Shown: piece by piece, positions 8,053-42,051 of the stretch
Layout: each line of letters opens with the position of its first letter
How positions within the stretch are numbered: the first letter of the stretch is position 1
Assembly: GCF_035609205.1 (NCBI RefSeq)
Contig: NZ_CP141184.1
Span: 5,029,001-5,093,000, forward strand
Direction: 5' to 3'
From: Hymenobacter sp. GOD-10R
Lineage (GTDB): Bacteria; Bacteroidota; Bacteroidia; Cytophagales; Hymenobacteraceae
Length of the DNA: 64,000 bases
Program-made: the position numbers and the translations under genes
The notes under the pieces: model-generated
Told to the model about the DNA's origin: nothing
Databases searched by the model: none
The model's input: the letters and a program-made list of their open reading frames with translations, nothing else

Positions 8053-8259
8053 ATTTAGCCTTCCCTGCGCTATACTACCCTAGGGTAAACTAAAGCTACT
8101 TATTCTATTGCAATTTTCTACATAAAGTTAAATTTAATCATAGTTAATTCCAGTATATTTAATGTATGGTATTAATTCCCAGTTGTATACAGTTTGCATT
8201 ATTTTTTGAAGCTGTAGTGAGGAAAAATCCTACTGCCCTATTCTACTGACACACGCGCT

Positions 8260-8267
8260 TATATTTG
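8260..8267 (+). promoter_or_regulatory. Probable -7 box (TATATTTG) for the carboxylase gene
   Basis: TATATTTG fits the Bacteroidota -7 consensus TAnnTTTG and lies 32 bp before the ATG at 8300. A clear -33 TTTG at the right spacing is not seen. Confidence 0.4.
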
Positions 8268-8299
8268 AGTGCTGTTTCCCATCCATCCCATCTTATAGC

Positions 8300-9868: not shown

Positions 9869-9902
9869 TTATCATCTCTTCCTCTTTAACAATTATCCTA
9901 GT

Positions 9903-10403: not shown

Positions 10404-10445
10404 GCTGTTACTGAATTCACAGGCTTTTTAACTTAGATTTTCTAT

Positions 10446-11516: not shown

Positions 11517-11542
11517 GTACTAGCCGGTAAGCTAGGCAGCTA

Positions 11543-11638
11543 GTATCATCCTGACGGAAGAAGGGCCTTGTCCCGTGTGAATAGATACCATGAGGTAACT
11601 TCACGCGGGACAAGGTCCTCGCTTTGTCAGGATGATAC
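11543..11638. repeat. REP-like hairpin repeat, copy A
   Basis: GTATCATCCTGAC at 11543-11555 pairs exactly with its reverse complement at 11626-11638, and inner arms (CCTTGTCCCG with CGCGGGACAAGG) extend the hairpin. It shares the TCATCCTGAC termini and the CCTTGTC inner word with copy B at 12456-12556. The element fills the gap between the M42 peptidase gene and the BtuF-like gene and is non-coding, although an open frame runs through it. Confidence 0.75.
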
Positions 11639-11648
11639 GTTTTTGATC

Positions 11649-12467: not shown

Positions 12468-12556
12468 CGCAGGAAGGACCTTGTCACTTGCGAATGAATC
12501 GTAACTAGCGATGCTTATCTACGAGTGACAAAATCCTTCCTGCGTCAGGATGACAG
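12456..12556. repeat. REP-like hairpin repeat, copy B
   Basis: CTGTCATCCTGACGCAGGAAG at the left end (from 12456) pairs with its reverse complement at the right end (to 12556), and inner arms GTCACTTG/CGAGTGAC continue the stem. The element provides the stop codon of the BtuF-like gene and ends 8 bp from the convergent aroA stop, so it may serve as a two-way terminator. Confidence 0.8.
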
Positions 12557-12563
12557 ATGATAG

Positions 12564-13823: not shown

Positions 13824-14860
13824 AGGCGATGATAGTAACGGAGCGACTCGGCCAACTCGGCCAGCGTCACGGGTTGATCGTACACGGCGTGGCCAATGCC
13901 TTGCAGCAGCGTACAGTTGATGGTAGCACCGACGTTCTTTTTGTCTTGCAATGCTAGCTCGGCAATGGCGTCGGTTTCGAACGTAATAAACTGGATCTTC
14001 TCGTACACCGTGAAGATGAACGTTTCAATTTTATCGAGCTCTTCTGGACTCAATAGCCCTTTTTGCACGGATAGCCAGCTTTCGCACACCATGCCGGCGG
14101 CAATGGCTTCGCCGTGCAGAATCTCGCGCCCAGGCTGACTAAGTAGGAAGCTTTCTAGGGCATGGCCAACAGTATGGCCGAAGTTCAGAATTTTGCGCAA
14201 GCCGCTTTCCAAAGGATCGGCTTCCACAATGCGCTGCTTCGTGGCCACCGACTCGCGGATGATAGGCGTCCAGTCTTCCACAAACATGCCTTGCCGACGC
14301 TGCTCATCGAAAGTTGCTGCATCGGCAATAAGCCAGTGCTTCACGATTTCAGCGTAGCCCGACTTCATCTGCCGCGGGTCGAGCGTAGTCAAGAAAGCCG
14401 GATCGATAAATACGCCAGCAGGCTCCTGAAACACGCCGAGCTGATTTTTGAAATTCTGAAAATCGACGCCCGTTTTGCCGCCCACACTAGCGTCTACTTG
14501 GGCCAGAAGCGTGGTAGGCACTTGCATGCACCGTATACCCCGCTTATAGAGCGCCGCGCACAAACCACCTAGGTCCGTAACGACGCCACCCCCTAGGTTG
14601 ACGAGTACGCCAAAACGGTCGGTGCGGTACTCGGTGAGGCAGTTCCACACGTTCTCACAAGTAGCTAGGGTCTTATATTCCTCACCGGCCGGAATTTCGA
14701 TGAGCTTGTGGTCTGCTGGCAAATGCGGCAGTAGTAGCGGGTAACACAGCCGAGCCGTGTTAGAGTCGGCTAATACCAGCACCCGGCTCACAGCAGGCTG
14801 GCGAAGCAACGCAGCCAAAGCAGGCAGCGCATCAGAACCGAAAGAAAGCGGAGCGTTCAA
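13820..14860 (-). CDS. aroB: 3-dehydroquinate synthase
   Basis: NAD- and metal-dependent enzyme converting DAHP to 3-dehydroquinate, the second step of the shikimate pathway. The 346-residue protein contains the nucleotide-binding GGGVVTDLGG, the active-site KTGVDFQNFKNQLG, and metal-ligand histidines in FGHTVGHALE. It is the first gene of an aroB-aroA operon and its stop codon overlaps the aroA start. A TAnnTTTG-type box lies about 50 bp upstream of the start. Other shikimate genes are not in the window. Confidence 0.96.
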   Translation of the reverse strand: MNAPLSFGSDALPALAALLRQPAVSRVLVLADSNTARLCYPLLLPHLPADHKLIEIPAGEEYKTLATCENVWNCLTEYRTDRFGVLVNLGGGVVTDLGGLCAALYKRGIRCMQVPTTLLAQVDASVGGKTGVDFQNFKNQLGVFQEPAGVFIDPAFLTTLDPRQMKSGYAEIVKHWLIADAATFDEQRRQGMFVEDWTPIIRESVATKQRIVEADPLESGLRKILNFGHTVGHALESFLLSQPGREILHGEAIAAGMVCESWLSVQKGLLSPEELDKIETFIFTVYEKIQFITFETDAIAELALQDKKNVGATINCTLLQGIGHAVYDQPVTLAELAESLRYYHRL

Positions 14861-15212
14861 TGGAAAATGCTTTTGCGAAACAGAACGTCACCCAAATGCG
14901 GGTGCCTGGCAAAAGTAACGGGTTCCAATTAAAGCAGCCCCTTTTAACCTACTGATGATAGTATATCCTTATTCAGCCCTAGCCAGAGATGGTTTGACCC
15001 TAGCACAACCGCTGTAACGATGGACCGCGAAAGACCTGCAAACTCTTTTCTTAAACCTAGCGTTGTCCTTCTGCTACTGAGGGTTGCCTAGCTGGCAACC
15101 TTAAGAAAGGGTGCAACCTCGCACATTAATTTTCAGTCACCCCTTTAAGCAGCTGACGTATTATCCCGTGTTCAGCAAAAATATTCGTCTTTGTTTTGCT
15201 CGTTCTCTTATT
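14861..15212. other. Intergenic region between aroB and the lipoprotein gene
   Basis: This 352-bp divergent spacer contains the aroB promoter candidate on the left. The rest shows no open frame of note, no RNA gene and no strong hairpin. An upstream extension of the lipoprotein frame from 15111 has no coding character. Confidence 0.5.
14910..14917 (-). promoter_or_regulatory. Probable -7 box (TACTTTTG) of the aroB-aroA operon
   Basis: Read on the minus strand, TACTTTTG matches the Bacteroidota -7 consensus TAnnTTTG and leaves a leader of roughly 40-45 nt before the aroB ATG. The -33 region is not convincing. Confidence 0.4.
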
Positions 15213-15635
15213 ATGAAACACTACGCCTCGTTCTTCTACGCCTTCCTTTTCTTCGTTGCAATTGCTGCTACAGGCTGTAAAAAGGATAATGATTCCACAG
15301 CACCAAAAACCGATGGGCTTGTAGGTCGATGGGATCTATATCAGACCAGCGGGGGTATTGCTGGCACAACTACGGATGTCGCAACTGGCACTTCCCAGTT
15401 GGAATTTAAGGCTGACAGTACCATAAACGTCTACAGTAAGAACCAGTTAGTAGACACACGGCAATACTCCATACGGCGCAGTACCGAGCCTGGCGACAGT
15501 CCTTCTGCGAAGCTCATTTTTTACATCGCACAAGGCGTCCGTTACACTCCACAGTACATTGAGCTGAATAATGATCAACTCACGCTGAAGGATAACATCG
15601 CCGATGGCTTCGTCTATCGCTATCGGCGTCAGTAA
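15213..15635 (+). CDS. Small lipoprotein, lipocalin-like
   Basis: The 140-residue product starts with a lipoprotein signal ending in AATGC (lipobox cysteine near residue 19), followed by KKDNDS, a common flexible linker in Bacteroidota lipoproteins. The mature part opens with GLVGRWDLYQTSGG and is all-beta in character, which resembles the lipocalin-like lipoproteins of this phylum. Function is unknown. The frame is open from 15111, but only the ATG at 15213 gives the signal peptide. It stands alone between aroB and the proline dehydrogenase gene. Confidence 0.7.
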   Translation: MKHYASFFYAFLFFVAIAATGCKKDNDSTAPKTDGLVGRWDLYQTSGGIAGTTTDVATGTSQLEFKADSTINVYSKNQLVDTRQYSIRRSTEPGDSPSAKLIFYIAQGVRYTPQYIELNNDQLTLKDNIADGFVYRYRRQ

Positions 15636-15776
15636 TAGTTAGCGGGTGATACTCAATCAATAGCTCGCGGGAGCAGACGCTAAGAGGAATTTTACGTATA
15701 CCTAAGGCGTTACGTAATGACATCGGCTAGCCTAAGAAGCTCGGCAGACTTACTATCCGAACCGCCATCGGCTGGT

Positions 15777-15784
15777 TATCTTTG
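15777..15784 (+). promoter_or_regulatory. Probable -7 box (TATCTTTG) of the proline dehydrogenase gene
   Basis: TATCTTTG fits TAnnTTTG and is 32 bp before the ATG at 15817, at about the same distance as the box upstream of the carboxylase gene. No clear -33 element is seen. Confidence 0.45.
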
Positions 15785-15816
15785 CGTCGCTGTACCTCCT
15801 TTCAAGCTCTTATAGT

Positions 15817-17007
15817 ATGCCCGCAACTCAGGCTCCCGTTATTTCCTTCGACAACACTGCAATTGCTTTCGCAGGCAAATCAGATGGCGAGCTACGCCGC
15901 ATGTATGCGCTGTTTGCTGCCATGAACAGCAACTCGCTGGTCAAGACCGGAAGCGGCCTCATGAACTTTGCCTTGAAGTGGAATTTGCCCGTCAAGTTCG
16001 CTATCAAGCAAACCATCTTTCGGCAGTTTTGCGGGGGGGAAACTATTCGGGAGTGCTTGCCGGTGATTGAAGAGCTAGGTCGTTACCATATTGGCACCAT
16101 CCTCGACTACTCAGTGGAAGGAGAAGGCAACGATAAGAGCTTCGATGCTACCTGCAATGAGATTCTGGCGACCATTGATATGGCGCACCGCTCTACGCAT
16201 ATTCCTTTCTCTGTATTCAAGGTAACAGGGGTTGCGGAAAGCAGCATTTTGGAGAAAGTGCAAGCGGGCACTCCGCTCTCCAAATCCGAACAAGCTAGCT
16301 TCGAACGCTCCAAGAATCGTGTAAACGCCATCTGCGCCCGAGCGCACCAGTACGGCGTGCGGGTGTTTGTAGATGCCGAGGAAAGCTGGTTTCAGAAAAC
16401 CATCGATGACTTGACTTACGAGATGATGGCGCGCTACAACCGGGAGTCTGCCATTGTCTGGAATACCTATCAGTTGTACCGCCACGACCGGCTCGATGCC
16501 ATCAAAGCTGCCGCTGACGTAGCAGAACGCGAAGGCTACTACCTAGGTGGTAAGCTGGTGCGCGGTGCTTATATGGAAAAAGAAGGCCGAGTAGCTGCTC
16601 AGCGTGGCTACAACAACCCCATTAACCCAACGAAGTCAGCTACTGATGAGCTTTACGACGAAGCCTTACGCTATTGCGTGGAGCACGTCGACCGTATCAG
16701 CATTTGCGCAGGCACTCATAACGAAGCTAGCTCTTTGCTACTTACTGAGTTGATGCAGGAGCAAAACCTGCGTCCCAGTGACCCACGCATCTGGTTTGCT
16801 CAACTCTATGGTATGAGTGACAACCTCAGCTATAACTTAGCCGATGCGGGTTACAACACGGCCAAGTATGTGCCTTACGGACCTGTAGAAGCCGTTATGC
16901 CTTATTTACTACGGCGAGCCAACGAGAATACAGCCATAGCAGGGCAAAGTAGTCGTGAGTTTCTCCTGATTCAGAAGGAGATGACGCGCAGAAAGCTCGC
17001 CAAATAA
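15817..17007 (+). CDS. Proline dehydrogenase
   Basis: FAD-dependent oxidation of proline to pyrroline-5-carboxylate, the first step of proline breakdown. The 396-residue protein is a single-domain enzyme of the PutA/PRODH barrel family. Recognisable segments are GRYHIGTILDYSVEGEG, the KLVRGAYMEKE flavin and substrate region, CAGTHNEASS, and a C-terminal PYLLRRANENTAIAG with the conserved arginine pair. No pyrroline-5-carboxylate dehydrogenase is fused or adjacent. A small uncharacterised gene follows about 110 bp downstream on the same strand. Confidence 0.94.
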   Translation: MPATQAPVISFDNTAIAFAGKSDGELRRMYALFAAMNSNSLVKTGSGLMNFALKWNLPVKFAIKQTIFRQFCGGETIRECLPVIEELGRYHIGTILDYSVEGEGNDKSFDATCNEILATIDMAHRSTHIPFSVFKVTGVAESSILEKVQAGTPLSKSEQASFERSKNRVNAICARAHQYGVRVFVDAEESWFQKTIDDLTYEMMARYNRESAIVWNTYQLYRHDRLDAIKAAADVAEREGYYLGGKLVRGAYMEKEGRVAAQRGYNNPINPTKSATDELYDEALRYCVEHVDRISICAGTHNEASSLLLTELMQEQNLRPSDPRIWFAQLYGMSDNLSYNLADAGYNTAKYVPYGPVEAVMPYLLRRANENTAIAGQSSREFLLIQKEMTRRKLAK

Positions 17008-17118
17008 AGCTGAAGCTTGGCGGCATAGTTTTGGTGCATGACAGGGTTACTGCGCAGGATTTCTATCTTGACCAGTGTTTTAGGTCTTATTCCCCTACTG
17101 TAAACCCACCTTTTGCGC

Positions 17119-17508
17119 ATGATCAGTCGCCTTCGCAACCATCTCATTCGCTTTTCTCGTCATCAAGTAGGCACTACCAGCTACCTGAATCTAGTACAAG
17201 AAGCGGAGCTTGGCTTTAACCTCGATATATCGCACGAGAAAACCCGCCTAAACGAGTTGTTAGCGGAGCTATCGGAAGCAGAATATCATGCTGGCCGCCC
17301 TATCCTGAGCTGCTTAGTGAAAGTAGAAGGCTCGAAAGGACAAGGAGACAACTTCTACAAACTGTGCGAGCGACTAGGACTCGGGGAATGGCGTACGCTC
17401 AAGCATGACCCCGACTTCCTGAAGGAGTTGCGTACGACCTGCCGAGCTTTTTGGCAGAACGATGTCAATTACGAAAAATTCGGGCATACCGATAAGTTAT
17501 ATACTTAG
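17119..17508 (+). CDS. Uncharacterised small protein
   Basis: A 129-residue, soluble, charged protein. It has no signal peptide and no recognisable catalytic motif. A predicted helical first half (NLVQEAELGFNLDISHEKTRL) is followed by RPILSCLVKVEGSKGQGDNFYKL, which looks like a conserved core. I recall similar hypothetical proteins in other Bacteroidota but no function for them. The ATG at 17119 is chosen over a TTG at 17113. It is downstream of the proline dehydrogenase gene and could share its transcript. Confidence 0.6.
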   Translation: MISRLRNHLIRFSRHQVGTTSYLNLVQEAELGFNLDISHEKTRLNELLAELSEAEYHAGRPILSCLVKVEGSKGQGDNFYKLCERLGLGEWRTLKHDPDFLKELRTTCRAFWQNDVNYEKFGHTDKLYT

Positions 17509-17658
17509 GCAACAGCTTATTAGGAGAAAGTAAAGTAAATTTTCTGTAACCCCTGCGGAGAGGTACCCGTTAAGCTATATCAAATCCAGTTCTTCATTCT
17601 TTTTGGGGAACAGCTGGGTTTAAACTCTCTCCCAATCAATTTTTAACTTTCTCCACCC

Positions 17659-18516
17659 ATGACTAACGAATCAATCAACCCGGAAAATGCAGGTACAGGC
17701 TCTGGCGCAAACTACGGTACTGGTACTTCAGGTACTGGCTACAGCGCTAGCAACCCTTCTACTTCCAATACGACTTCGAGCGGCAATCTCGGCAACTCAA
17801 GCGCGGGTGACAGCAGCACGGCTGGTACTTCTTCATATGGCACCACGGGCGGTGACAACAACCCCCACCACGATTACAGCGCTACTCAAAAAGGTGCCGA
17901 AATCGCTGGCGGAGCAGGTGCAGTAGTTGGTCGCGGCATCGATGCAGTGCAAAACACCGCTGGTGATGCAGCACGTGCCGTAACTGGCAACGACACAACT
18001 TACGGCACGACTACCTACGGTACGTTCAAAGACCGCTCGAGCGCTGAGCGTGCTTATAACTCGTTGACTTCACGTGGTTACACGAAAGACGACGTAAACG
18101 TACTGATGTCGGACGACACGCGTAAAACCCACTTTGGTGAAGACACCCCAGAAACTGATCTTGGTGATAAGGCCATGGAAGGTGCTGGTGTAGGTTCAGC
18201 AATTGGTGGTACGGCTGGTGCTATCATTGGCGCTATCGCTGCAATTGGTACGTCGGTAGCACTACCAGGCCTAGGTCTAGTAATCGCTGGTCCGATTGCC
18301 GCGGCACTAGCTGGTGCTGGTGCTGGTGGTCTAACGGGTGGCCTAGTAGGCGCTCTAGTAGGCTCGGGCATCCCAGAAGAGCATGCTGCTGAATACGAAA
18401 GCGACGTTAAAAACGGCGGCATTGTAATGGGCGTGAAACACCGCAACCCAGAAGATGCACAGTATCTCCACGACGAGTTTACCAACAGCAACGCCAATAA
18501 AGTGCGTAGCTACTAG
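17659..18516 (+). CDS. General stress protein with glycine-zipper region
   Basis: The 285-residue product has three parts. Residues 1-80 are low-complexity Gly/Ser/Thr/Asn. Residues about 115-155 (TYGTFKDRSSAERAYNSLTS, then RGYTKDDVNVLMSD) match the general stress protein 17M/YflT-like domain. Residues about 170-245 are very rich in Gly, Ala and Ile with GxxxG spacing, resembling glycine-zipper membrane segments. The C-terminus (GGIVMGVKHRNPEDAQ) resembles the end of this family in Bacteroidota. The likely role is in a general stress response, acting at or near a membrane, but no mechanism is known. It has its own strong terminator. Confidence 0.75.
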   Translation: MTNESINPENAGTGSGANYGTGTSGTGYSASNPSTSNTTSSGNLGNSSAGDSSTAGTSSYGTTGGDNNPHHDYSATQKGAEIAGGAGAVVGRGIDAVQNTAGDAARAVTGNDTTYGTTTYGTFKDRSSAERAYNSLTSRGYTKDDVNVLMSDDTRKTHFGEDTPETDLGDKAMEGAGVGSAIGGTAGAIIGAIAAIGTSVALPGLGLVIAGPIAAALAGAGAGGLTGGLVGALVGSGIPEEHAAEYESDVKNGGIVMGVKHRNPEDAQYLHDEFTNSNANKVRSY

Positions 18517-31266: not shown

Positions 31267-32823
31267 TTACTGCGCCGGCTTCGCTACGGTTACAGGTTTG
31301 CGCGGAAGTTTTTGGTCACGCATGGCGGTGTTGTACACAAAGGAGGCCACCACCACCGAGGCCTGCTTTAGGTCTTCGGGCTGCAGGCGCTCGTAGGTAT
31401 CCATGTTGGTGTGGTGGGTGCGGGTGTTATAATCGAGGCCATCCTGAATGAACTGGAAGCCTGGAATACCAACGGCGTCGAACGAGAGGTGGTCGGTGCC
31501 GCCCGTGTTGCGCGGCGTGATGGTCGTGGCACCTAGGTCAGCGAAGGGCTGGAGCCACGCGGTGAAAATGGGTCGCACGCCCTCGTTGCCCTGCAAGTAG
31601 ATCCCGCGAATCTTGCCGGTACCGTTGTCAAGGTTGAAGTAGCCAGCTAGCTTTTCCTGCTCAGGCGTGGGCTTACCGGCTTCGCCAAAGTGGTTCTTCA
31701 CGTAGTTTTTGGAGCCGTGCAAGCCTTCCTCCTCTTCCCCCCACAGGGCAATCCGAATGGTGCGCTTGGGCTTCACATTCAAGGCTTTCAAGATTCGAAC
31801 GGCTTCCATCATCACGGCACAGCCGGCCGCGTTATCAGTAGCGCCGGTAGCGGCGTGCCATGAGTCGAGGTGACCACCTAGCATCACTACTTCGCTCTTC
31901 AGCTTCTTGTCGGTGCCCGTAATTTCGGCTACCACGTTGTAGCCTTTCAAATCCTGGGTCTGGAATTTTGTTTTGGTTTCCATCTCCACTTCCACCGGAA
32001 TACCCGCTTCCACCAAACGAATTAGGCGCAGTTGATCTTCGGGTGCCGTTTCGATTTCGGGCAGCACGGGCTTGGCGTCGGCGGCATACGGAGCACCATT
32101 GCTGGTGAAGAACGTGCCGTCGGAACCGCCACGTGGGTTACTGAGCACCGCGACGGCGCCCTCGGCTAGGAGGAATTCCGCCATTTTGCCGCGGAGCGCT
32201 ATCCGGGCCCGATAAGCCGTCATGGCGTCGTCGGTCATGGCCGGGCGGGCGCTCGGGGTAGCTGTAGCATCCGCCATTTTCTTCAGGTCTTCGTCGGTGT
32301 AGCGCTTGGCGTCGGGCTCGAAGCCAGCTTTGGGCGGCGAGGTTACTTCCGTTACTACAATCTTGTCGCGCAGCTGGCCTTTGTACTTCTCCAGATCAGC
32401 TTCCGTAGCGGCTTTCACATACACGATCTGCTTCTTCACCTGCCCGTTGGTGCCTGGGGTCCAGGCTTTTGGAGCACCGATCATCGCATGGTAGTACGGC
32501 TTGGTCATAGCTAGGTACGACTTCTCTACATCCCAGCCGCGGCCAAAATCGCCCCAGGGCTCCACGTTCGCATTGACCAGGCCCCACTTCGACAGCTGAT
32601 CTTTAGTCCACTGGTTGGCGCGCTGCAAGCCTTCGGAGTTTGCCAGGCGTGGTCCGCACACATCCGTTAGGTAGAAGGCGGTTTCCATCACTTTGGAGCG
32701 GTTCATACCTTCATCCTTGATTTTGGCAATCATGGCTTGGTCGAATTTCTCAGCTTGCTGAGCGAGCAGTGGGGAGCTGACGGCGAGGTTGCACACCACG
32801 GAGAAGAATACTAGTCTTTTCAT
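31267..32823 (-). CDS. Secreted M28 family metallopeptidase
   Basis: Zinc aminopeptidase or carboxypeptidase of the M28 family. The 518-residue precursor carries a signal peptide (about residues 1-21, ending LLAQ). A protease-associated-type insert occupies the middle. The metal site is complete: GGHLDSW, GATDNAAGC, LWGEEEEGLHGS with the catalytic glutamate pair, FNLDNGTG, and GTDHLSFDAVG. The frame is open seven codons upstream, but the ATG at 32823 starts the signal peptide. It is the first gene downstream of the TPR kinase-like gene, separated by about 125 bp, so co-regulation is possible. Confidence 0.93.
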   Translation of the reverse strand: MKRLVFFSVVCNLAVSSPLLAQQAEKFDQAMIAKIKDEGMNRSKVMETAFYLTDVCGPRLANSEGLQRANQWTKDQLSKWGLVNANVEPWGDFGRGWDVEKSYLAMTKPYYHAMIGAPKAWTPGTNGQVKKQIVYVKAATEADLEKYKGQLRDKIVVTEVTSPPKAGFEPDAKRYTDEDLKKMADATATPSARPAMTDDAMTAYRARIALRGKMAEFLLAEGAVAVLSNPRGGSDGTFFTSNGAPYAADAKPVLPEIETAPEDQLRLIRLVEAGIPVEVEMETKTKFQTQDLKGYNVVAEITGTDKKLKSEVVMLGGHLDSWHAATGATDNAAGCAVMMEAVRILKALNVKPKRTIRIALWGEEEEGLHGSKNYVKNHFGEAGKPTPEQEKLAGYFNLDNGTGKIRGIYLQGNEGVRPIFTAWLQPFADLGATTITPRNTGGTDHLSFDAVGIPGFQFIQDGLDYNTRTHHTNMDTYERLQPEDLKQASVVVASFVYNTAMRDQKLPRKPVTVAKPAQ

Positions 32824-32949
32824 GAAGAATAGGCTTGAGGTCATGTAGGCAATGTTACGTCACTGACGCGCCGCTTGCAGAAACGTTGCTTCGAGGCAGC
32901 AGCTTACCTTCCTAGCTGCCTACCATCTACTAGCCAGCATATTGGCCCG

Positions 32950-35046
32950 CTACCCTTCGGCCGAAGCGTTGGCGCTTGCTACCGCTTCCAGTTGTGCTTT
33001 CACGGGTAGCGTGATGATGAACTCGGTAAACTCTCCTTCGAGTGACTCCACACGCAATGCTCCGCCGTGGCTTTTGATGATATCATAGCTCAAGGGCAAC
33101 CCTAACCCGGGGCTATCATTCGTCGTGTTGGCCGTCGAAAACCGCTGGAACATGCTGCCTTGCAAATCCTTTGGCAGACCTAGGCCGTTGTCGCGCACGC
33201 GTATTTCCACGTGTTTGGCCGAGCGGCGAGTACTGACGGCGACTTGCGGCACGTAGCCTTCTTCATCCAAGCTCTGCCGCTGCTGCACCGCCTGAAAAGC
33301 TGTCAGAAATAGTTGAATCAGGGCCCGGCTCAGGTCGTGGCGCACGACGTCGAGTATGCCTACTGCCGGATCAAACGTTGGTAACAACGCCGCGTTGAAG
33401 GTGCGGTGCTTCCCTCGCATTTCATGATAGGCCATACGCAAGTTGCTCTCTATCATGGTGTTCAACTCGGTGGCTTGGCGTAGGCTAGGTTCGGCCGATG
33501 CGTACTCCAGCATGCCGAGCACAATGGAGTTGGCCCGCCGTCCGGCCTGCACAATCTTCTCCTGGTATTGCCGCAGGTTTTGCAGCGTCTCATCCAGATA
33601 CTCCCAATCGTCGTTCGGCAGGGCTAGCTTGTTGAACTCTGCGTGCAGCTCCTGGCACAGCGCTTCGCTGATGCCGGCAAAGTCGCGCACCTGGTGCACG
33701 GGTTTTTGAATCTCTTGGGCCACGCTTGCCATCAACTCACCGAGGCTCGCCATCTTCTCGCGCAATACCAGTTGGCTTTGCGCTTGCTTCAGCTCCAACA
33801 GCGTTCGAGCTAGGTTGTCGCGCTGCACCATAAACTCCTCCTTCTGCTGAACAACTTGCTGATTGAGAGCTTGCAACTTCGCGTTGGCCTGCTTTTGCAG
33901 CTTGTTGTTGCGCCATAAAAGCAGCGCCACCAGCAATAGCACCGCCAAACCGGCAGCCAGCGCATACATGCGCATGCGCGCCATGTAGTGGACCCGCTCT
34001 ATCTCCAGCTCCCGCAGTCGTTGCTGTTCCGCAAAGCCAATAGCGTCAAGCTGTTTGATCCGCTGCGGGTCATACAAGCTGTCTTCGGCCCGGAGCATGA
34101 TGTTCATGTATTTCAGCGTACTATCGCGCTGCTTACGGGTTTGGAAGGCCTCCGCTAGCAGGTTGCTCGTGCGTACCACGCCCACCACAAAAGGCAGTGA
34201 CTGCCCCATCACCAAGGCTTTGCGCGCATAATACACGCTCGAATCGTGCTGCTGGCGGTTGTCGTACAGCTCGGCTAGGTACTGATAGGCCCGGCTGCTG
34301 CTGCGCAGGTCGTTTTCGGGAATGGCCGCTTGGGCACTCAGCCGGTAGTAGCGAATCGCTTCGGCCGTATGACCTAGGGCGCCTTGCAGCAAACCTAGCT
34401 CCCTCAGTACGTAGGGCGCAGGATTGCCCCAGCAGCTTTGGTGAACGTTGCGCGACTGCCTAGTGAGCTGATAGGCCCGATTCAGAAAGACCGTTGCCGA
34501 ATCGAGTTGATGCAAGGCCGTGTAGCTGGCTCCGATGTTGGCAAGCACACTAATAAGCTGCGAATCATCCTGAATGTGGATCTGCTCATAAATGCTCTTC
34601 GACCGGAAAAAATAGGCTAGGGCCGGCCGCTCATCGTCGAGGGCGTGGTAGAGCAGCCCGGTTTGATTGAGCGTACGCGCCGTGCCTTCCAGGTCGCGGC
34701 TCTCTTCGTTGATTTTCAACGCTTTCAAATCCGTGCGAAGCGCCTGCGGCAGGTTACCTCGCTCCCCCATCAGGATGCCGATGCGCGACAAACAACGACC
34801 TTCCCCTTTGCGGTAGCCGATTTTCCAAGCTAGGTGTAGCCCTTTTCGGGCGTACCACTGCACCGAGTCGAAGCGGGAGTAGCGGTAAGACGCCGCTACA
34901 TCGGCCAGGAGCAACACCCGGCTGGTATCAGACGTAGCTTGGGCCAAAGCCCGCCGCAACAGCGCCGTTTGCGGACTTTGCGCTCGTCCGACTAATGATC
35001 CAAGTAAGGCAAAAAGAAAAAACAGATAGCGTAATCGTTGCTTCAT
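32950..35046 (-). CDS. TPR histidine-kinase-like protein lacking the phosphoacceptor His (probable pseudokinase)
   Basis: The 698-residue protein has a signal peptide (about residues 1-22), a periplasmic array of TPR-like helical repeats to about residue 330, one transmembrane helix (MYALAAGLAVLLLVALLLW), a coiled coil, and a histidine-kinase core. In the H box, the usual AHEIQNP reads AQEIQKP: the histidine is Gln444 (codon CAA at 33715-33717). In the N box, the expected NLxxNA reads QLFLTAFQAV, so the metal-binding asparagine is also gone. The G1 (RDNGLGLP) and G2 (GLGLPLSYDIIKSHGG) boxes remain. It therefore looks like a sensor unable to autophosphorylate. It lies 82 bp downstream of the TonB-receptor gene. 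The ATG at 35046 begins the signal peptide. Confidence 0.85.
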   Translation of the reverse strand: MKQRLRYLFFLFALLGSLVGRAQSPQTALLRRALAQATSDTSRVLLLADVAASYRYSRFDSVQWYARKGLHLAWKIGYRKGEGRCLSRIGILMGERGNLPQALRTDLKALKINEESRDLEGTARTLNQTGLLYHALDDERPALAYFFRSKSIYEQIHIQDDSQLISVLANIGASYTALHQLDSATVFLNRAYQLTRQSRNVHQSCWGNPAPYVLRELGLLQGALGHTAEAIRYYRLSAQAAIPENDLRSSSRAYQYLAELYDNRQQHDSSVYYARKALVMGQSLPFVVGVVRTSNLLAEAFQTRKQRDSTLKYMNIMLRAEDSLYDPQRIKQLDAIGFAEQQRLRELEIERVHYMARMRMYALAAGLAVLLLVALLLWRNNKLQKQANAKLQALNQQVVQQKEEFMVQRDNLARTLLELKQAQSQLVLREKMASLGELMASVAQEIQKPVHQVRDFAGISEALCQELHAEFNKLALPNDDWEYLDETLQNLRQYQEKIVQAGRRANSIVLGMLEYASAEPSLRQATELNTMIESNLRMAYHEMRGKHRTFNAALLPTFDPAVGILDVVRHDLSRALIQLFLTAFQAVQQRQSLDEEGYVPQVAVSTRRSAKHVEIRVRDNGLGLPKDLQGSMFQRFSTANTTNDSPGLGLPLSYDIIKSHGGALRVESLEGEFTEFIITLPVKAQLEAVASANASAEG

Positions 35047-35127
35047 ACGTGAAGATAATTGCCGCTCGTGGTTAAGCACAACTATTAGGTCTGCCGCGCG
35101 GGCTCTACCTAGGGTTGTGCTCGGAGC

Positions 35128-37566
35128 TTACATGCCTAAGCGGCCCCGCTCATCGGCATTGCTCTTGGTTTCGACACGCTTGCTCTTCAGGTCGGCCTTG
35201 CCAAAGTTGAAGGTGAAGGCTAGCCGCACCTGGCGTGTATCGTTGCGGTACATCTCGCTCAGCACCACGGGCACAATGGTGCTGGTCACCCGCGGATTCG
35301 TGTCGTAGAACAAGTCAGCTACGGATAGATTGAGCGAAGCCCGCTTGTTCAAAAACGTCTTCTTCACGCCCACCGACACGTAGGAATACGCATCCCAATC
35401 AAATAGCCCGTTCATAGAGGGCGAATTGTAGAGCCCATACACGCGTACCGACCAGCCCTTGCCCCAAGTAAGCGTGTTGTCGCTGCTGAGCATGTAGTAG
35501 GTTTTGCGCTTGGTCAGGTTCATGGTATTATCAAGCGGGCTGGGGAAGTTTAGTTCCTGGTAGAATACGCTGGCGCTGTTGTTCATCGTCCACCACTTAG
35601 CCGGCGTGAAGGGCGCAGTGAGCGTGGCGGTAGCTAGGTGGCGATGTGCTAGGTTCTGTTGGGTGGTCGTCAGGCGTAGCGTGGCGGCATCGTAGAGGTA
35701 CACGGACGAAATGGCGCCAACGGTTTGGGTATAGGCGAGTTGCAGTCCGAAGCCTTTGTAGAGGTTATTCCAGGAGAAGCTGTGTAGGTACTCGGGGCGA
35801 AGCGAGGCATTGCCGCGGCTGGTGCTGTAGGTGTCCTGAAACCGCTCGTACGGAATGAGGCTTTCGTAGGCGGGGCGGCGGATATTCTTGGCGTAAGCCA
35901 GCGAGGTCGTGAAGTCATCCGACACCTTATAGTCGGCGCGCAGATTCGGGAACAGGTTGAAGTAGCTCGAATCGATGCCGCTGACCACGCGGTAGTGTGT
36001 GCGTTCAGCCCGCAGCCCAGCCTGCAAACCTAGCTTCCCGATGGTTTGATTCAGGCTGAAGTAGCCGGCCGCTACGCGCTCCTGGTATCCTAGCTTCGAG
36101 AAGGGCGACAACGCTTGTGCTACCCAGTTGCCGTCGGCGAGGGTGGCGGCGTCTTGGCGACTCTGGTTGCGGGTATCGGTATACTTCAGACCCGCTTCCA
36201 AGCGCGTGTTCGGGTTCCAAACTTTGGTGTAGTCGGCGGCGGTAGTGGAAATGTGGTAGGTAGCCGGAATGAAATTGCGGAAGGTGCTCGCCACGCCGAC
36301 GGAGTCTTGAGGGCCTTGCAGCAACTGGTCAAACGTCTGTTGCTGCTTGTTCTGGTAAGTGGCGTAGTTGCTGGTCAGCAGCAGTGCCGAGCCGAGGCTA
36401 TCCAGCTTGTGCTTGTAGAAGAGCGTGTAGTTGCTGAAAGCATCTTGCAACAGCACGCTCTCTTGCATGCGACTCGTAGTGAGTCCTTTGCTTTGGGTTA
36501 TGTACGACTGGGTCCAGCCGGCACCGTCCAGGCTGCTGTGCAGCACATCCACATCGAAACCGAGCGTCATGCTGGGGCTGAAGTGATAGTTGAGGCTGGC
36601 GCTGAAGCTGCTGTTGAGGATGGTCTTGTTCAGGTCGCCACGCTGCGCTAGGTCGGCGGCCGGCGTCAGGCCTTCGTAGATCGTGCGGGACGAAGTGCTC
36701 CGCTCGAATCCATCGCGCCGATTGAAGCTGCCATTAACAGCTAGGTCAAGCTTTGGCGTGCTCACCCGCACGCCGCTGTTGAGGCCGGCCCCCGTGCGGT
36801 AGCCTTGGCGGAAATTGGCGCCCACGTTCGCCGTCCACCCTAGCTCTTTGGCGCGCTTGGTGTAAATCTCAATTACTCCGCCCGAAGCGTCGGCGTCGTA
36901 CTTCGCTGAGGGATTACTAATGAGTTCGATGCGTTCGATTTGGTCGCCGGGAATGCTCGCCAGCAGCGTTTCGAGGTTAGTGCCACTGGGCAGCCGCTTC
37001 CCGTTCAGCAGGATGAGCACGTTGCCTTTGCCACGGAAGGTTAGCCGCCCATCGATCAGCTGCACCGAGGGCGCGGCGGCCAAGATGTCGTAGGCGTCGT
37101 TGCCTGCGGCTAAGATGCTGCCGTCCACGTTCATCGTTACGCGGTCGGGCTTTTGCTCGATCAAGGGCCGCTGACCAGTCACGACGACTTCACCTAGCTT
37201 CTGCGCTGTTGCAGCTAAGCCCAGCGTACCTAGGTCTAGGCTGGGGATGCCGGCCGATAGTTGAACGGCCTGCACATGCGTCACAAACCCGATCATCAGT
37301 ATCTGAAGCTGGTAGCTGCCGGGCTTCACATTCTTCAAGCTGAAACGGCCAGTCTCGTCAGCCAAGGCAGTCTGCACCACGCTTTCGGAACCCGCCGCTT
37401 TCAAGACTACATTAGCGAAGCTCAACGCTTCCTGCTTCTGCTGGTCGAGCACGCGGCCGCTGATGGTCGTTTGGGCCACGGCACTAACACCAATTAATAA
37501 GCAGAGAAACAACAGGAAGGCGAGGCGGCTAGCTTGTGCGCAGGCAGGGAGTAGAGAAGGACGCAT
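35128..37566 (-). CDS. TonB-dependent receptor-type outer membrane protein
   Basis: The 812-residue precursor has a signal peptide (about residues 1-31), a carboxypeptidase-regulatory-like beta domain (TISGRVLDQQKQEALSFANV, about 33-115), a plug domain (about 120-235, with LLNGKRLPSGTNLETLLASI and ERIELISNPSAKYDADASGG) and a beta-barrel of the outer-membrane-barrel family 3 type. It should span the outer membrane. No SusD partner is adjacent, which argues against glycan import of the Sus type. It is the first gene of a unit with the TPR kinase-like protein and is divergent from the LytS/LytTR genes. A regulatory link is probable, substrate unknown. Confidence 0.9.
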   Translation of the reverse strand: MRPSLLPACAQASRLAFLLFLCLLIGVSAVAQTTISGRVLDQQKQEALSFANVVLKAAGSESVVQTALADETGRFSLKNVKPGSYQLQILMIGFVTHVQAVQLSAGIPSLDLGTLGLAATAQKLGEVVVTGQRPLIEQKPDRVTMNVDGSILAAGNDAYDILAAAPSVQLIDGRLTFRGKGNVLILLNGKRLPSGTNLETLLASIPGDQIERIELISNPSAKYDADASGGVIEIYTKRAKELGWTANVGANFRQGYRTGAGLNSGVRVSTPKLDLAVNGSFNRRDGFERSTSSRTIYEGLTPAADLAQRGDLNKTILNSSFSASLNYHFSPSMTLGFDVDVLHSSLDGAGWTQSYITQSKGLTTSRMQESVLLQDAFSNYTLFYKHKLDSLGSALLLTSNYATYQNKQQQTFDQLLQGPQDSVGVASTFRNFIPATYHISTTAADYTKVWNPNTRLEAGLKYTDTRNQSRQDAATLADGNWVAQALSPFSKLGYQERVAAGYFSLNQTIGKLGLQAGLRAERTHYRVVSGIDSSYFNLFPNLRADYKVSDDFTTSLAYAKNIRRPAYESLIPYERFQDTYSTSRGNASLRPEYLHSFSWNNLYKGFGLQLAYTQTVGAISSVYLYDAATLRLTTTQQNLAHRHLATATLTAPFTPAKWWTMNNSASVFYQELNFPSPLDNTMNLTKRKTYYMLSSDNTLTWGKGWSVRVYGLYNSPSMNGLFDWDAYSYVSVGVKKTFLNKRASLNLSVADLFYDTNPRVTSTIVPVVLSEMYRNDTRQVRLAFTFNFGKADLKSKRVETKSNADERGRLGM

Positions 37567-37663
37567 TTCGTGGTTTCTTTTGGCGTTGGGAAGAAGCTGG
37601 AACGAAGAAACTGCGCACCTTTAAGGAGCCGAACTTATTTCGACCAAGTCACGGCACCACACC

Positions 37664-37681
37664 ACCAACGTGCGAGTTGGT
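37664..37681. promoter_or_regulatory. Inverted repeat in divergent signalling promoter region
   Basis: ACCAAC and GTTGGT are separated by six bases, just before the LytS-like gene start at 37694. The 127-bp spacer between the divergent receptor and LytS-like genes must contain both promoters. This repeat is a possible operator but is short. Confidence 0.25.
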
Positions 37682-37693
37682 CTGCCTTTTTTC

Positions 37694-38788
37694 ATGCCCG
37701 AACTTCTACCTAGCCCCACGGAGCCCCGCCTGAGCACCCGCACCACTACCGTGCTGATGCAGCTGCTGCTGTGGTTGCTGCTTTACGGGTTCTACTTTGC
37801 TTGGAACAATCGCCCCAACTACCATTTCACGGGTCACATCTGGCCTTATGTGCTACTGGAATGGACCTTTGCCATCGGGCTCTTTAACTGCCTGGTATAC
37901 CTGATTATTCCGCGCTGGCTGCTCCGCGGCCGCTTCAGTCTCGCCTTGATGGGCGCAGTGGCGCTCATTTATACCTACCGTCTGTGGATGTACGTGGGCG
38001 CTTTGCTGATTATTCACTACGCTCCCATAAGCGCCGATTTGCGCTACAACCTCCAAAAAAGTTACGCCGAAAGCCCTTGGCCCGACCTGACAAGCTGGCG
38101 CGGGTTGCTGGGTTCGTTGATGGATTTGCTAGCCACCGTACTCTTCCCCATTATCGTCAGCTTTGTCACCTACGCACTAGTAATCGAACGCCGCCGCCTA
38201 GCCTTGGAGCGCGACCATTTACGGCTGGAATTGAGCTACTTGAAAGCCCAAATAAACCCGCAGTTCTTGTTCAACACCCTCGGCACTTTGCAGCGCCTGA
38301 CCCGCAGCCGCGACCGGCGCGCGGGCGACGTTGTGCTGCACCTAGCTGATTTGATGCGCTACACCCTCTACGAAACCGACACAGAGCGCGTCGCGCTGAG
38401 CCGGGAGCTGGAGTTTCTGGAAGATTACCTAGCCTTAGAGCGCCTGCTGCATCCGGAGGCTACCATCGCGCACGAGGTTGAGGGCGCGGTGACCTCGCAG
38501 CAGCTAGCCCCCTTGCTGTTGCATCCTTTTCTGGAAAGACTTTTTGTGGGAATAGAAGCCGCTCCAGGCAGTTCTGTGCATATTCAGAGCACGATTCACG
38601 TTGATGCCGATGCACTTACCTTACAGATAGTTCGCACGACCGGGATGCCGTTAGCCCATCTTTACCGCACCGATGCGGCCATCGAAGCAGCGCTGCGGCG
38701 GCTAGAACTGCAATACCCTCAGCAGCATACCGTGCAGCTCACGGAGGAAAATGCGCACTTACGTTTGCACCTTAGCCTTCAACTTTAA
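37694..38788 (+). CDS. LytS-type histidine-kinase-like protein without catalytic residues (pseudokinase)
   Basis: The 364-residue protein has four or so N-terminal transmembrane helices and a coiled linker, then the His_kinase (PF06580) region. The invariant NPHFLFN reads NPQFLFN: residue 190 is Gln (codon CAG at 38261-38263). The ATPase part is degraded too: the expected ENAxxHG reads ERLFVGI, and neither the DNG-type box nor GIGLxN is recognisable. Yet the frame is intact, so it is not a decaying pseudogene. It lies immediately upstream of an intact LytS homologue and a LytTR regulator; stop and next start are 24 bp apart. The likely role is a regulatory partner of the intact kinase (inference). 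The ATG at 37694 is preferred to an upstream alternative. Confidence 0.88.
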   Translation: MPELLPSPTEPRLSTRTTTVLMQLLLWLLLYGFYFAWNNRPNYHFTGHIWPYVLLEWTFAIGLFNCLVYLIIPRWLLRGRFSLALMGAVALIYTYRLWMYVGALLIIHYAPISADLRYNLQKSYAESPWPDLTSWRGLLGSLMDLLATVLFPIIVSFVTYALVIERRRLALERDHLRLELSYLKAQINPQFLFNTLGTLQRLTRSRDRRAGDVVLHLADLMRYTLYETDTERVALSRELEFLEDYLALERLLHPEATIAHEVEGAVTSQQLAPLLLHPFLERLFVGIEAAPGSSVHIQSTIHVDADALTLQIVRTTGMPLAHLYRTDAAIEAALRRLELQYPQQHTVQLTEENAHLRLHLSLQL

Positions 38789-38812
38789 AAGGAAGTGCCA
38801 GCCTTCGCTCCT

Positions 38813-39955
38813 ATGACTTATTCGCTTCCTTTCCGCATCCCACGCATGCAGGTCGTACGGCCGCTGCTTTTGTGGGCCTTGTATATTGGCTTTGAGTACT
38901 TCGTCTACAGCGGCTGGCACAAGTCGCCCTTGCTCACGTGGTGCTTTACGCTTAAGGACACGGTGGCCGCGGTGGTCAGTTTCTATTTCTTCTCGCGGGT
39001 GGTACTGCCCCGCTTTGTGCTACAAGGGCGCTGGCTCCTAACGGCACTGAGCTTAGTAGCCATCTATTATTGCTGGGCCTTAGTTTCATACGCCGTATTT
39101 CTAGGCCTTGACTACTACCAGCTAGACCCCAAGGAAAGCTACATCTACCGCATTCTGGATCAAGGGCTTTGGGTGGGTGTCTTCTCGTGGCACGGGGTCA
39201 GTATCGGTCTTTACGACTTCAGTATCACCGCGATGCTGCCCATCTTCGGCCGGTTCTTGCAATTCTTGCTAACGACGAGCAACCACACCCTGCGCCTACA
39301 ACGCGAAAACCTGAACCTAGAAGTCAGTTTTCTCAAAGCCCAGGTCAATCCGCACTTCCTGTTTAATACCCTTAATAACATCTACACCATGGTGGTGAAG
39401 CAGGACGAGCGCGCCCCCGATATGGTGCAGCACCTCTCTGACCTTATGCACTACACGGTGTATGAGTCGGACGCGGCCTTGGTGCCACTCACGAAGGAAA
39501 CGGCTTTCCTGGATGCGTACCTAGAGCTGGAACGGCTGCGCTACGGCAAGAAAGTCCGCATCACCTATCAAAAATCGGGTATCACGGACCAGCAGACCAT
39601 CACGCCGCTGCTGTTTTTTCCTTTTGTCGAAAATGCCTTTAAGCATGGCGTCGATAGCAGCCTCGATGCCTCCTGGGTCGCTATTTCGTTAGCGGCGGAC
39701 GCTACCCAGCTGCGGTTTGAAGTCAGCAACAGCTTCAGTCCCACGGCCCCACGGCGCGAGTTCGGGGGCGTAGGCATTGATAATGTGAAGAAGCGCCTAG
39801 CGCTCCACTACGCCCCCGAGGAGTACGACCTCACCATCACCCGCGACCAGGAAACCTACACGTACCGCGTGGCCCTAACCATTCGGCTGACGTCCGTGGC
39901 CCAGCCCGACGCTCGCCCCGCTCCCTTCTTACCTAGCTTTGCTCCTGCCCAATGA
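38813..39955 (+). CDS. LytS-type sensor histidine kinase (intact)
   Basis: A 380-residue membrane kinase with about four N-terminal hydrophobic helices and a short linker to the catalytic region. The phosphoacceptor is His181 in AQVNPHFLFNTLNNIY. The ATPase motifs are complete: FPFVENAFKHGVD, and FGGVGIDNVKKRLALHY. It should phosphorylate the LytTR regulator encoded by the next gene, with which it overlaps by 4 bp (ATGA). The ATG at 38813 is chosen over a GTG at 38795. The upstream gene is a paralogue of similar size and topology that has lost the catalytic residues. Confidence 0.92.
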   Translation: MTYSLPFRIPRMQVVRPLLLWALYIGFEYFVYSGWHKSPLLTWCFTLKDTVAAVVSFYFFSRVVLPRFVLQGRWLLTALSLVAIYYCWALVSYAVFLGLDYYQLDPKESYIYRILDQGLWVGVFSWHGVSIGLYDFSITAMLPIFGRFLQFLLTTSNHTLRLQRENLNLEVSFLKAQVNPHFLFNTLNNIYTMVVKQDERAPDMVQHLSDLMHYTVYESDAALVPLTKETAFLDAYLELERLRYGKKVRITYQKSGITDQQTITPLLFFPFVENAFKHGVDSSLDASWVAISLAADATQLRFEVSNSFSPTAPRREFGGVGIDNVKKRLALHYAPEEYDLTITRDQETYTYRVALTIRLTSVAQPDARPAPFLPSFAPAQ

Positions 39956-40653
39956 TCAATTGCCTGATTATCGACGATGAACCCTTCGCCCGCGAACTGC
40001 TCGAAGACTACGTCGCCAAAATTCCGTCGCTGAACTTATTGGGCAGCTGTGAGCATGTGTTTGAGGCGTTGGAGGTATTGCAGCAGCAGAAAGTAGACCT
40101 CGTCTTTTCCGATATCAACATGCCGCAGGTTAATGGCATTGAGTTCATTCGGTCTTTGCACAATCCACCATACGTCATCTTCGTCACGGCCTACCCAAAC
40201 TACGCACTGGAAGGCTTTGAGCTAGATGCCTTGGATTACATTGTGAAGCCGGTGTCATTCCCGCGCTTTTTGAAGGCGGTGAATAAGGCGTTGGCGGTGC
40301 TCAATAACCGACCCGCCATCCCAGCTCCGCCGGCGCCGGAGTACCTGTTTGTGAAGGAAGGTAACTCGTTGCAGCGGGTGCTCTTCGATGAGATCTACTA
40401 CATCGAGGGCATGAAGGACTACATCAAAATCATCCTGAAGAACCGGGTCATCATCACGTATCTGCGCATGAGTCGGGTGGAAGACCAGCTGCCCGCTAGC
40501 CGCTTTACCCGCATTCAGAAGTCCTACATCGTGCGCATGGATGCCATCAAAGCCATCAGCGGCAACGAGGTAGAGTTGTACAACTTACCCGAGAAGCTGC
40601 CGATTGGCAAGCAGTACAAGGAGGCGCTGCTGGCACAGTTTGGGCTGAGTTAA
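39952..40653 (+). CDS. LytTR family response regulator
   Basis: Two-domain transcription regulator of 233 residues. The receiver domain has the acidic pair DDE at residues 8-10, the phosphorylation site Asp54 in VFSDINMPQVNG, the VTAYPNYAL switch threonine and the KPV lysine. The LytTR DNA-binding domain (about 130-230) includes EIYYIEGMKDYIKI, the FTRIQKSYIV stretch and LPIGKQYKEAL. It is translationally coupled to the intact kinase. Candidate targets are the divergent receptor unit and its own operon, but no binding site can be named from the sequence. Confidence 0.94.
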   Translation: MINCLIIDDEPFARELLEDYVAKIPSLNLLGSCEHVFEALEVLQQQKVDLVFSDINMPQVNGIEFIRSLHNPPYVIFVTAYPNYALEGFELDALDYIVKPVSFPRFLKAVNKALAVLNNRPAIPAPPAPEYLFVKEGNSLQRVLFDEIYYIEGMKDYIKIILKNRVIITYLRMSRVEDQLPASRFTRIQKSYIVRMDAIKAISGNEVELYNLPEKLPIGKQYKEALLAQFGLS

Positions 40654-40764
40654 CTCGAAGCAAAAACAGCGTTGGCAAGCAGTTTATCTAACTCAGAGGT
40701 GCACAAGTAATAGCAGATTTGAATAGTATTAGGCTCATTTCCGCAAACTGACCTAGCCTATTCC

Positions 40765-42051
40765 ATGAGAAAACGCCTACTCCTTGCTTGCGCTTTCGCG
40801 GGTACTTTCGCTGCGCACGCCCAAAAACTCACGGCTACCGAGAAGAAGATTGTGGCCACGGTGCAGCAGAATATGCCGCAGAGCGAGAAGCTGTTGGTGC
40901 AAGTGGTGAACATCAACAGCGGCACCTTGAACGTGAAAGGCGTACGCGAAGTAGGCGATATTTTCCGTAAACAGTTTGATGCGATTGGCTTCAAAACCAG
41001 CTGGGTCGATATGCCTGCCGAGATGCAGCGCGCCGGCCACCTGGTAGCGCAGCGCAAGGGCAAAAAGGGCAAGAAGCTCTTCCTCATTGGCCACCTCGAC
41101 ACGGTGTTTGAGCTGGATATGCCTTTCACGAAGTACACCCAGCTCAACGACTCCACTGCTACGGGCCAAGGCGTGAACGACATGAAAGGCGGCGACGTGG
41201 TGATGCTAGCGGCTCTGCAAGCGTTGCAGCAAAACGGCCTGCTCGATAACACGACCATTACCGCCTACTTTACCGGTGATGAAGAGCGCAGCGGCAAAGG
41301 CGAAGCCGCCCGCGCCGACTTCATTGCCAAAGCCAAAGAATCGGAGGTGGCCCTAGCTTTTGAATCAGCGGCGGGGCTGCACTCGGTGGCTACGGCCCGG
41401 CGCGGCTCCAGCGGCTGGCAGCTCAAAACCACTGGGCAGGCAGCGCACTCGTCGACTATTTTCAAACCCAACGTGGGCTATGGGGCCGTGTATGAAGCTG
41501 CACGTATCCTGAATGAGTTTCGGGAAAAGCTGAGCCAAGAGCAATATCTCACCTTCAACCCCGGCCTAATTGTGGGCGGCTCGGAGGTGAAGTACGATGC
41601 GGCCAAAGCACACGGCGAAGTGGTGGGCAAGACGAACATCATCTCCCCGGAAGTCGACGTAGCCGGCGACCTACGCTTCCTCACCGAGCAGCAGAAGGAA
41701 GACGCCCGCACCAAAATGCGCGAAATCGTGAGCCACAGCCTGCCAAATACGAAGGCCGAAATCACCTTCACCGATGGCTTACCCGGTATGCCGCCCACGC
41801 CCGGCAACCAGAAGCTAGCTACCCTCACCGACCAGGTAAGCCGCGACCTAGGTTTCGGCCCCGTGACGGCGGGCGACCCTGGCTCTCGCGGCGCCGGCGA
41901 CGTGTCGCTCGTAGCGCAGTACCTCGATTGTCTGGATGGGCTAGGTTCGTCGGGCAAAGGCGCCCACGCACCGGGCGAGACGATTAACACAAAGGAGTTT
42001 CCGCTGCTGGTGCAGCGCGCCGCGCTGATGATTTATCGGCTGACGCGGTGA
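40765..42051 (+). CDS. Secreted M20 family metallopeptidase (glutamate carboxypeptidase type)
   Basis: Zinc exopeptidase of the M20A family, related to carboxypeptidase G2. The 428-residue precursor has a signal peptide (about residues 1-18, ending AHAQ). Catalytic parts are GHLDTVFE, GVNDMKGGDV with the bridging aspartate, GDEERSGKG with the catalytic glutamate pair, and the late GSSGKGAHAPGE with the last histidine ligand. The dimerisation domain is in the middle (RGSSGWQLKTTGQAAHSS). It starts 111 bp after the LytTR regulator on the same strand and is the second secreted peptidase beside this signalling block. Confidence 0.93.
   Translation: MRKRLLLACAFAGTFAAHAQKLTATEKKIVATVQQNMPQSEKLLVQVVNINSGTLNVKGVREVGDIFRKQFDAIGFKTSWVDMPAEMQRAGHLVAQRKGKKGKKLFLIGHLDTVFELDMPFTKYTQLNDSTATGQGVNDMKGGDVVMLAALQALQQNGLLDNTTITAYFTGDEERSGKGEAARADFIAKAKESEVALAFESAAGLHSVATARRGSSGWQLKTTGQAAHSSTIFKPNVGYGAVYEAARILNEFREKLSQEQYLTFNPGLIVGGSEVKYDAAKAHGEVVGKTNIISPEVDVAGDLRFLTEQQKEDARTKMREIVSHSLPNTKAEITFTDGLPGMPPTPGNQKLATLTDQVSRDLGFGPVTAGDPGSRGAGDVSLVAQYLDCLDGLGSSGKGAHAPGETINTKEFPLLVQRAALMIYRLTR

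Follow-up and report, generated by a model that had tools for sequence, protein, structure and literature searches.

A predicted LytTR circuit with a conserved pseudokinase and an outer-membrane target in Hymenobacter sp. GOD-10R

Natural pseudo-histidine kinases have, as far as we know and as an impression only, been described for few systems. FasA of group A Streptococcus is a LytTR protein, ChrS and HrrS belong to another kinase family, and, to our knowledge, DivL is not of LytS type and YpdA/YpdB of Escherichia coli comprises one kinase and no pseudokinase partner. For FasBCA, two-hybrid support is reported for a heterodimer of FasB and FasC; the latter, a proposed pseudokinase, keeps the histidine (H246) thought to carry phosphate, its kinase domain alone being dispensable (PMC12675982). 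ChrS of Corynebacterium glutamicum is a catalytically dead kinase that pairs with its active paralogue HrrS and alters the output (PMC9491836), DivL of Caulobacter is a natural pseudo-histidine kinase that controls the real kinase CckA (PMC4211667, PMC9430884), and LytTR sites are laid out as repeats of 9-11 nt placed 11-13 nt apart (PMC4847170). Here we analyse a stretch of 64,000 nucleotides (the window; contig NZ_CP141184.1, positions 5,029,001 to 5,093,000) from the 7.5-Mb genome of Hymenobacter sp. GOD-10R. The locus in question contains a trio of genes for a LytS-type protein without catalytic residues (pseudo-LytS), an intact LytS and a LytTR response regulator, and the divergent gene of an outer-membrane protein (OMP).

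The trio lies on the plus strand. The membrane protein pseudo-LytS (37694-38788; PF06580, E 2.7e-22) is followed by the histidine kinase LytS, with its H, N and G motifs intact (38795-39955; PF06580, E 6e-26), and by the regulator (39952-40653; PF00072 and PF04397), which shows 77-99% identity in relatives. The start of the regulator overlaps the end of LytS, and gene order together with this overlap suggests an operon. The arrangement sets an intact PF06580 kinase next to a receiver/LytTR regulator, as in LytS/LytTR two-component systems, and two kinase-like proteins side by side with one regulator, as in FasBCA. In the pseudo-LytS of the window, INPQFLF has Q in place of the phosphoacceptor His, ERLFVG replaces ENAFKHG at the N-box, and the glycine box is missing; the motif losses noted in a preliminary description of this DNA are real.

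We compared the locus across 120 Hymenobacter genomes (G000 being the window's own), with orthologues taken at E <= 1e-60 for pseudo-LytS and for a tetratricopeptide repeat (TPR) kinase described below, and at E <= 1e-150 for the OMP. Pseudo-LytS has an orthologue in 28 of the 120, and LytS and then the LytTR regulator are the next genes in every one of these, an order kept beyond what chance would give (the trio of G169 was read from two short contigs). Across the 28 genomes the phosphoacceptor position of pseudo-LytS holds Q in 27 and H in G106 only, and the N-box is lost throughout, while LytS keeps all four tested residues (H/N/G/G) in each. The earlier reading of a pseudokinase beside a single active kinase is true of this pair, which is conserved. 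A protein search, cut off where the scores fall steeply, gave a wider family of 93 relatives (P0002-P0094, some partial), in which the His position is occupied by Q (79), R (8), H (4), A (1) or D (1). The N-box Asn is found in none of the 91 proteins with a letter at that position, and none of the 93 retains both tested glycines. Judged by the catalytic motifs of an active LytS-type kinase, the family falls short, with His missing from 89 of 93 members. Conservation is seen instead at new residues, ER and RRL-LQYP among them, and the clear members, where the organism is named among the best 120 rows, come from Hymenobacter, apart from one entry labelled Janthinobacterium. In the predicted model of pseudo-LytS (pLDDT 83.6, pTM 0.55), long helices precede a short domain that is still ATPase-like, and its best PDB match is the kinase domain of GanS (6swk; E 2.6e-8, TM 0.36 by query). 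By these motif and conservation data, pseudo-LytS is a distinct LytS-type family stripped of catalytic residues and conserved beside an intact kinase.

Elsewhere in the window's own genome, His is kept in 18 of 20 PF06580 (LytS-type) genes. That genome also holds a second trio (L226, G000:C1:5452000-5460000; 2585-5585, plus strand), in which an intact LytS is followed by a LytS with T for His (LQPTFLF), spanning two overlapping frames, and then by a LytTR regulator.

The trio occurs in more than one setting. In 15 of the 28 genomes it stands between dnaG and an Mrp-type gene, and several others share a second setting with another OMP gene; the dnaG-Mrp interval of the window's own genome holds other genes and no trio. 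The neighbours of the trio are the OMP without a gene that we call c1 (5 genomes), the OMP together with c1 (4), an OMP remnant with c1 (1), or c1 alone (18).

Between the OMP gene and pseudo-LytS lies a divergent spacer with conserved promoter-like blocks (37567-37693), which is 127 bp long if pseudo-LytS starts at the ATG at 37694 (the open reading frame list has GTG 37670 instead). The spacers of 13 loci align, and their clearest block is GACCAA-N14-CCACCAA, a candidate LytTR operator at 37642-37668 on the plus strand. Its two ACCAA cores are 21 bp apart, a period that, on the letters of this candidate site, fits the published LytTR layout. In a profile of 25 spacers, where the core letters are fixed by the selection of rows, conservation extends to the flanking TTC and to most of CCCACA, and the seven bases between them are variable. 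For 25 of the 28 trio genomes, the 190 bp ahead of pseudo-LytS contain an exact match, and in G201 the operator lies in the same spacer nearer the OMP, so that 26 of 28 carry an exact site in the divergent spacer. In the window, 25 bp separate the end of the repeat from the pseudo-LytS ATG, and autorepression would therefore be possible. A terminator-like hairpin with a T tail (37664-37681) shares sequence with the operator's 3' end and lies just ahead of this ATG; the number of such hairpins was not above chance, and neither the terminator scan (9 vs 12.5) nor the sigma-70 promoter scan (1 vs 4.0) gave an excess over shuffles.

The operator pattern gave 111 matches over the 120 genomes by hand count. 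Of these, 34 lie at the trio, at an OMP gene or at a DUF5700 gene (27, 4 and 3, respectively, with G169's trio match appearing on two contigs), and the remaining 77 are close to the 69 of a reversed control pattern. A stricter motif with no mismatch allowed gave 24 matches, again counted by hand; they are confined to 22 trio genomes (of 28), and the 92 other genomes have none. The trio accounts for 21 of them, an OMP promoter apart from the trio for 2 and DUF5700 for 1. The site in the window departs from the strict motif at one position and is the sole match in its genome at up to two mismatches, which makes the present locus the predicted regulon of this genome.

The OMP (35128-37566, minus strand) belongs to OMP_b-brl_3 and carries CarboxypepD_reg and Plug domains (PF14905, E 1.9e-78; PF07715; PF13620). 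This combination of beta-barrel, Plug and N-terminal CarboxypepD_reg is that of a TonB-dependent-type receptor, a role predicted from the domains. Orthologues are present in 15 of the 120 genomes, nine with the trio and six without. Of the 14 upstream regions read (G130 excluded), nine come from trio genomes, and eight of these have the operator at 101-104 bp from the OMP ATG (102 bp in the window); the ninth, G190, has a degenerate form at that position. None of the five trio-less loci has the operator there. In G106, G153, G154 and G159, c1 lies between the OMP and the trio, and the OMP has its own copy of the operator, separate from that of the trio. The preliminary description had treated the receptor as divergent from, and linked to, the trio, and both the conserved divergent promoter and these four separate copies uphold that link. 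Behind the EreA-like gene c1 of H. metallicola (G126, L047/L051) there is a remnant of OMP residues 702-804 only (53%), and the OMP is apparently being lost there.

Two further families are predicted targets. For c1 there was no Pfam or NCBIfam match and no meaningful match in a sequence search of the PDB (one at E 0.77). Its model (pLDDT 92.3) matches the folds of B. cereus BcR135 and EreC and, more weakly, ChaN, and we label it EreA/ChaN-like only. The shared trio site lies 90-115 bp before c1 in 23 of 23 loci; c1 was not found in G000, G156, G201, G151, G190, G080 or G092, in a search set without a genome known to match. The third family is DUF5700, a putative zinc peptidase by Pfam, whose genes were read at seven loci of trio genomes and have an operator copy 90-100 bp upstream in three of them (G167, G203 and G158; L153 5954-7193, L154 4441-5668, and L167). 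By eye and by Pfam, the OMP, EreA-like and DUF5700 proteins look exported or outer-membrane.

Taken together, we consider it probable, at roughly 0.6, that the OMP gene and the trio form a self-contained unit (unit A) in which LytS and the non-catalytic pseudo-LytS drive the LytTR regulator to act on the OMP and on its own operon. The proposal builds on what the sequences show: the state of each motif, the conservation, the position of the operator and junctions consistent with an insertion. LytS would be the sole catalytically competent kinase of unit A, and pseudo-LytS would pair with it, most likely via the helical region, and set its activity. LytS would phosphorylate the regulator, which in turn would bind the direct repeat at 37642-37668 and control the OMP, probably as an activator; it would also control its own operon, where repression is as likely. 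Here, control of the OMP perhaps takes in the downstream TPR kinase and M28 peptidase genes as passengers, and in other genomes c1 or DUF5700 would be a target. The cue may be an envelope or peptide signal.

Several observations weigh against this proposal. LytS reads as two pieces in G106, G153 and G190, and His is retained in one pseudo-LytS (that of G106) and in 4 of the 93 family members. The site of G190 is degenerate, and the trio site of G153 has a spacer one base shorter. The strict motif matches with one mismatch in three trio-less genomes (G128, G180 and G195) and, at up to two mismatches, in 66 of 120 genomes, which resembles background. The 8 of 9 against 0 of 5 upstream of the OMP are not independent events, the genomes being related, and the 23 c1 sites are the trio's own sites viewed from the opposite side. 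Finally, 18 of the 28 trio genomes have c1 and no OMP at the site, and the OMP is thus not an obligate target.

The preliminary description had drawn a wider module of seven genes, and all seven are where it placed them, with the expected domains. The three outside unit A, which we call unit B, encode an M28 family exported peptidase (31267-32844, minus strand; PF04389, E 1.9e-38), a TPR sensor histidine kinase without phosphoacceptor His or N-box Asn (32950-35079, minus strand; PF02518 and TPR matches) and an M20 family exported peptidase (40765-42051, plus strand; PF01546, E 1.2e-18; upstream sequence common with G080 from 40700). Comparison with G080 makes ATG 35046 a likelier start of the TPR kinase than the open reading frame end at 35079. 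The motif losses described earlier for this kinase are also present, with AQEIQKP (H to Q) and LFLTAF at the N-box. Unit B adjoins the trio in just 2 of the 28 genomes, the window and H. crusticola (G156, L048), the test being weak for G169, G189 and G190, which have short contigs there. In G080 and G092, both without the trio, M28, TPR kinase and M20 form a contiguous block, and M28 is beside the TPR kinase in these two and in G171, which likewise has no trio. The expectation that the two divergent halves would be neighbours elsewhere thus held for the OMP, which nine of the 28 genomes place beside the trio (one more has the remnant), and failed for the TPR kinase, M28 and M20.

Homology between the window and G080 reaches 35052 on the left and restarts at 40700 on the right. 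The 5.6-kb segment between (35053-40699), comprising the OMP, the promoter and the trio, is missing from the TPR kinase-M20 interval of G080. The right junction scores 78, its non-coding part reaching 47 against a maximum of 14 in 300 shuffles; the non-coding part of the left junction has no signal (11 vs 13 in shuffles), and G092 gives gene order only, its non-coding sequence not being alignable (score 12). The junctions are consistent with insertion of unit A between the TPR kinase and M20, and insertion here is, by parsimony, preferred to loss in G080 because the trio sits elsewhere in other genomes. A TPR kinase match is present in at least 116 of the 120 genomes, with many paralogues. In 24 of its loci (L053-L072 and L116-L119, with one gene appearing as both L065 and L116) the phosphoacceptor is His in 11, Q in 12 and Y in 1, with at least four changes of state on the tree; 17 of the 24 rows retain the N-box Asn. 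G080, G092 and G171 carry Q without the trio, and the His loss is therefore most likely older than the joining of the two units. The seven genes are, on this comparison of gene order and junctions, a fusion of unit A with unit B; as one conserved module they were rejected.

A link to peptide antibiotics comes from OMP loci outside unit A. All five trio-less OMP loci read (L156-L160) are class I lanthipeptide clusters with LanB, HlyD-like, LanC and C39-ABC genes, identified by their domains in L157 and by similarity in the other four. L159 has a match to a class I lanthipeptide leader (NF038153), and the OMP gene of G130 is about 2 kb from LanB. LanB is matched in 20 of the 34 genomes examined, and in 6 of the 9 with trio and OMP (not in G151, G159 or G201). 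The window is not a class I lanthipeptide cluster, the sole LanB match of its genome being on C4, outside the window. In a tree of the OMPs, a clean division into module and cluster groups was rejected, G196 lying among the module OMPs with supports of 88-99 on the path, and we accordingly claim no direction of transfer.

Across 34 chosen Hymenobacter genomes there were 38 LanB matches, 30 of them read as loci (L176-L205), and a LytTR gene lies within 1.5 kb in 18 of the 30. LytTR control of clusters for ribosomally synthesized and post-translationally modified peptides (RiPPs) may thus be common in Hymenobacter; the LytTR proteins near LanB are 35-42% identical to that of the window and form a different subfamily. 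Among the 18 is a RiPP cluster on C4 of the window's own genome (L227, G000:C4:1-20000; 7114-18291), where a LytS/LytTR pair adjoins YcaO/SagD-like, SagC-like, LanB-like and OMP_b-brl_3 genes.

Other explanations were weighed against a self-contained unit A. That pseudo-LytS is simply a dying gene would agree with its loss of His, N-box and glycine box, and is made extremely improbable by the lack of any internal stop in 28 of 28 matches, the 55-93% identity outside the window, the ATPase-like domain retained in the model and the newly conserved residues. The conserved repeat could be part of a promoter or the site of another factor rather than a LytTR operator, and adjacent blocks of the spacer are indeed conserved as well; we hold this to be unlikely, since the strict motif without mismatch is missing from the 92 trio-less genomes, and the repeat has the LytTR period and recurs at a similar distance before three unrelated gene families. 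The preliminary description had further proposed that the receptor or TPR protein senses a ligand, perhaps one released by the flanking peptidases, while two pseudokinases tune one kinase. All seven genes do lie side by side in the window, as they do in H. crusticola, and co-transcription downstream of the OMP is possible, the gaps from OMP to TPR kinase and from TPR kinase to M28 being about 81 and 105 bp; read-through from the OMP promoter may carry these two genes as passengers. With unit B beside the trio so rarely, its blocks present without the trio, the TPR kinase His-less in trio-less genomes and its state changing repeatedly, we consider that proposal very unlikely, and nothing was found linking M28 or M20 to a ligand.

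Two readings concern the nature of the cue. A response of the trio to envelope stress, with the OMP, EreA-like and DUF5700 proteins as general envelope factors and no peptide ligand, would suit the exported or outer-membrane look of all three target families, the lack of any biosynthetic gene inside the module and the three of nine trio and OMP genomes without a LanB match. The occurrence of OMP orthologues outside the module in lanthipeptide clusters, at five of five loci, speaks against it, and we rate it somewhat unlikely. A peptide cue for the trio is plausible from the same gene contexts. Its most specific form would make the trio a sensing or immunity circuit of a Gram-negative bacterium for peptide antibiotics, in which the kinase-pseudokinase pair detects lanthipeptides or their damage and LytTR expresses an OMP that lanthipeptide clusters also carry, with the EreA-fold hydrolase or the DUF5700 peptidase as alternative effectors and the peptide coming from neighbours rather than from the cell itself; this we put forward as a doubtful idea. 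The link of the OMP to lanthipeptide clusters nonetheless suggests a class of ligand worth trying. The candidate operator predicts concrete targets and so makes a Bacteroidota LytTR circuit directly testable, and the pseudo-LytS family offers natural Q, R and H states for comparison.

A search of open PMC papers found none joining LytTR with a pseudokinase, and passages of PMC4227749, PMC11347149 and PMC8895600 brought no counter-evidence. The Hymenobacter lanthipeptide clusters resemble the locus in carrying an OMP orthologue and differ in their LanB, LanC, HlyD-like and C39-ABC genes, none of which is in the window's module; their genomes have no trio. Among the known systems, YpdA/YpdB shares a kinase and regulator of LytS/LytTR type and has an operator of two spaced repeats, a layout that the candidate site also fits, but the operator letters there are others, GGCATTTCAT (PMC4847170). 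ChrS also pairs a dead kinase with an active one, a pairing of the kind proposed here for LytS and pseudo-LytS; it is, however, a laboratory-evolved frameshift in one strain, whereas pseudo-LytS is a conserved gene (PMC9491836). DivL acts in another pathway. FasBCA is the nearest system that we found; its operon encodes a pair of sensor kinases together with a single response regulator (PMC12675982). Unlike FasC, which retains its His, pseudo-LytS has lost His (Q in 27 of 28), N-box and glycine box, and the predicted target of the Hymenobacter module is an outer-membrane protein. The module differs from these systems in a partner that has lost every catalytic motif and in its predicted outer-membrane target.

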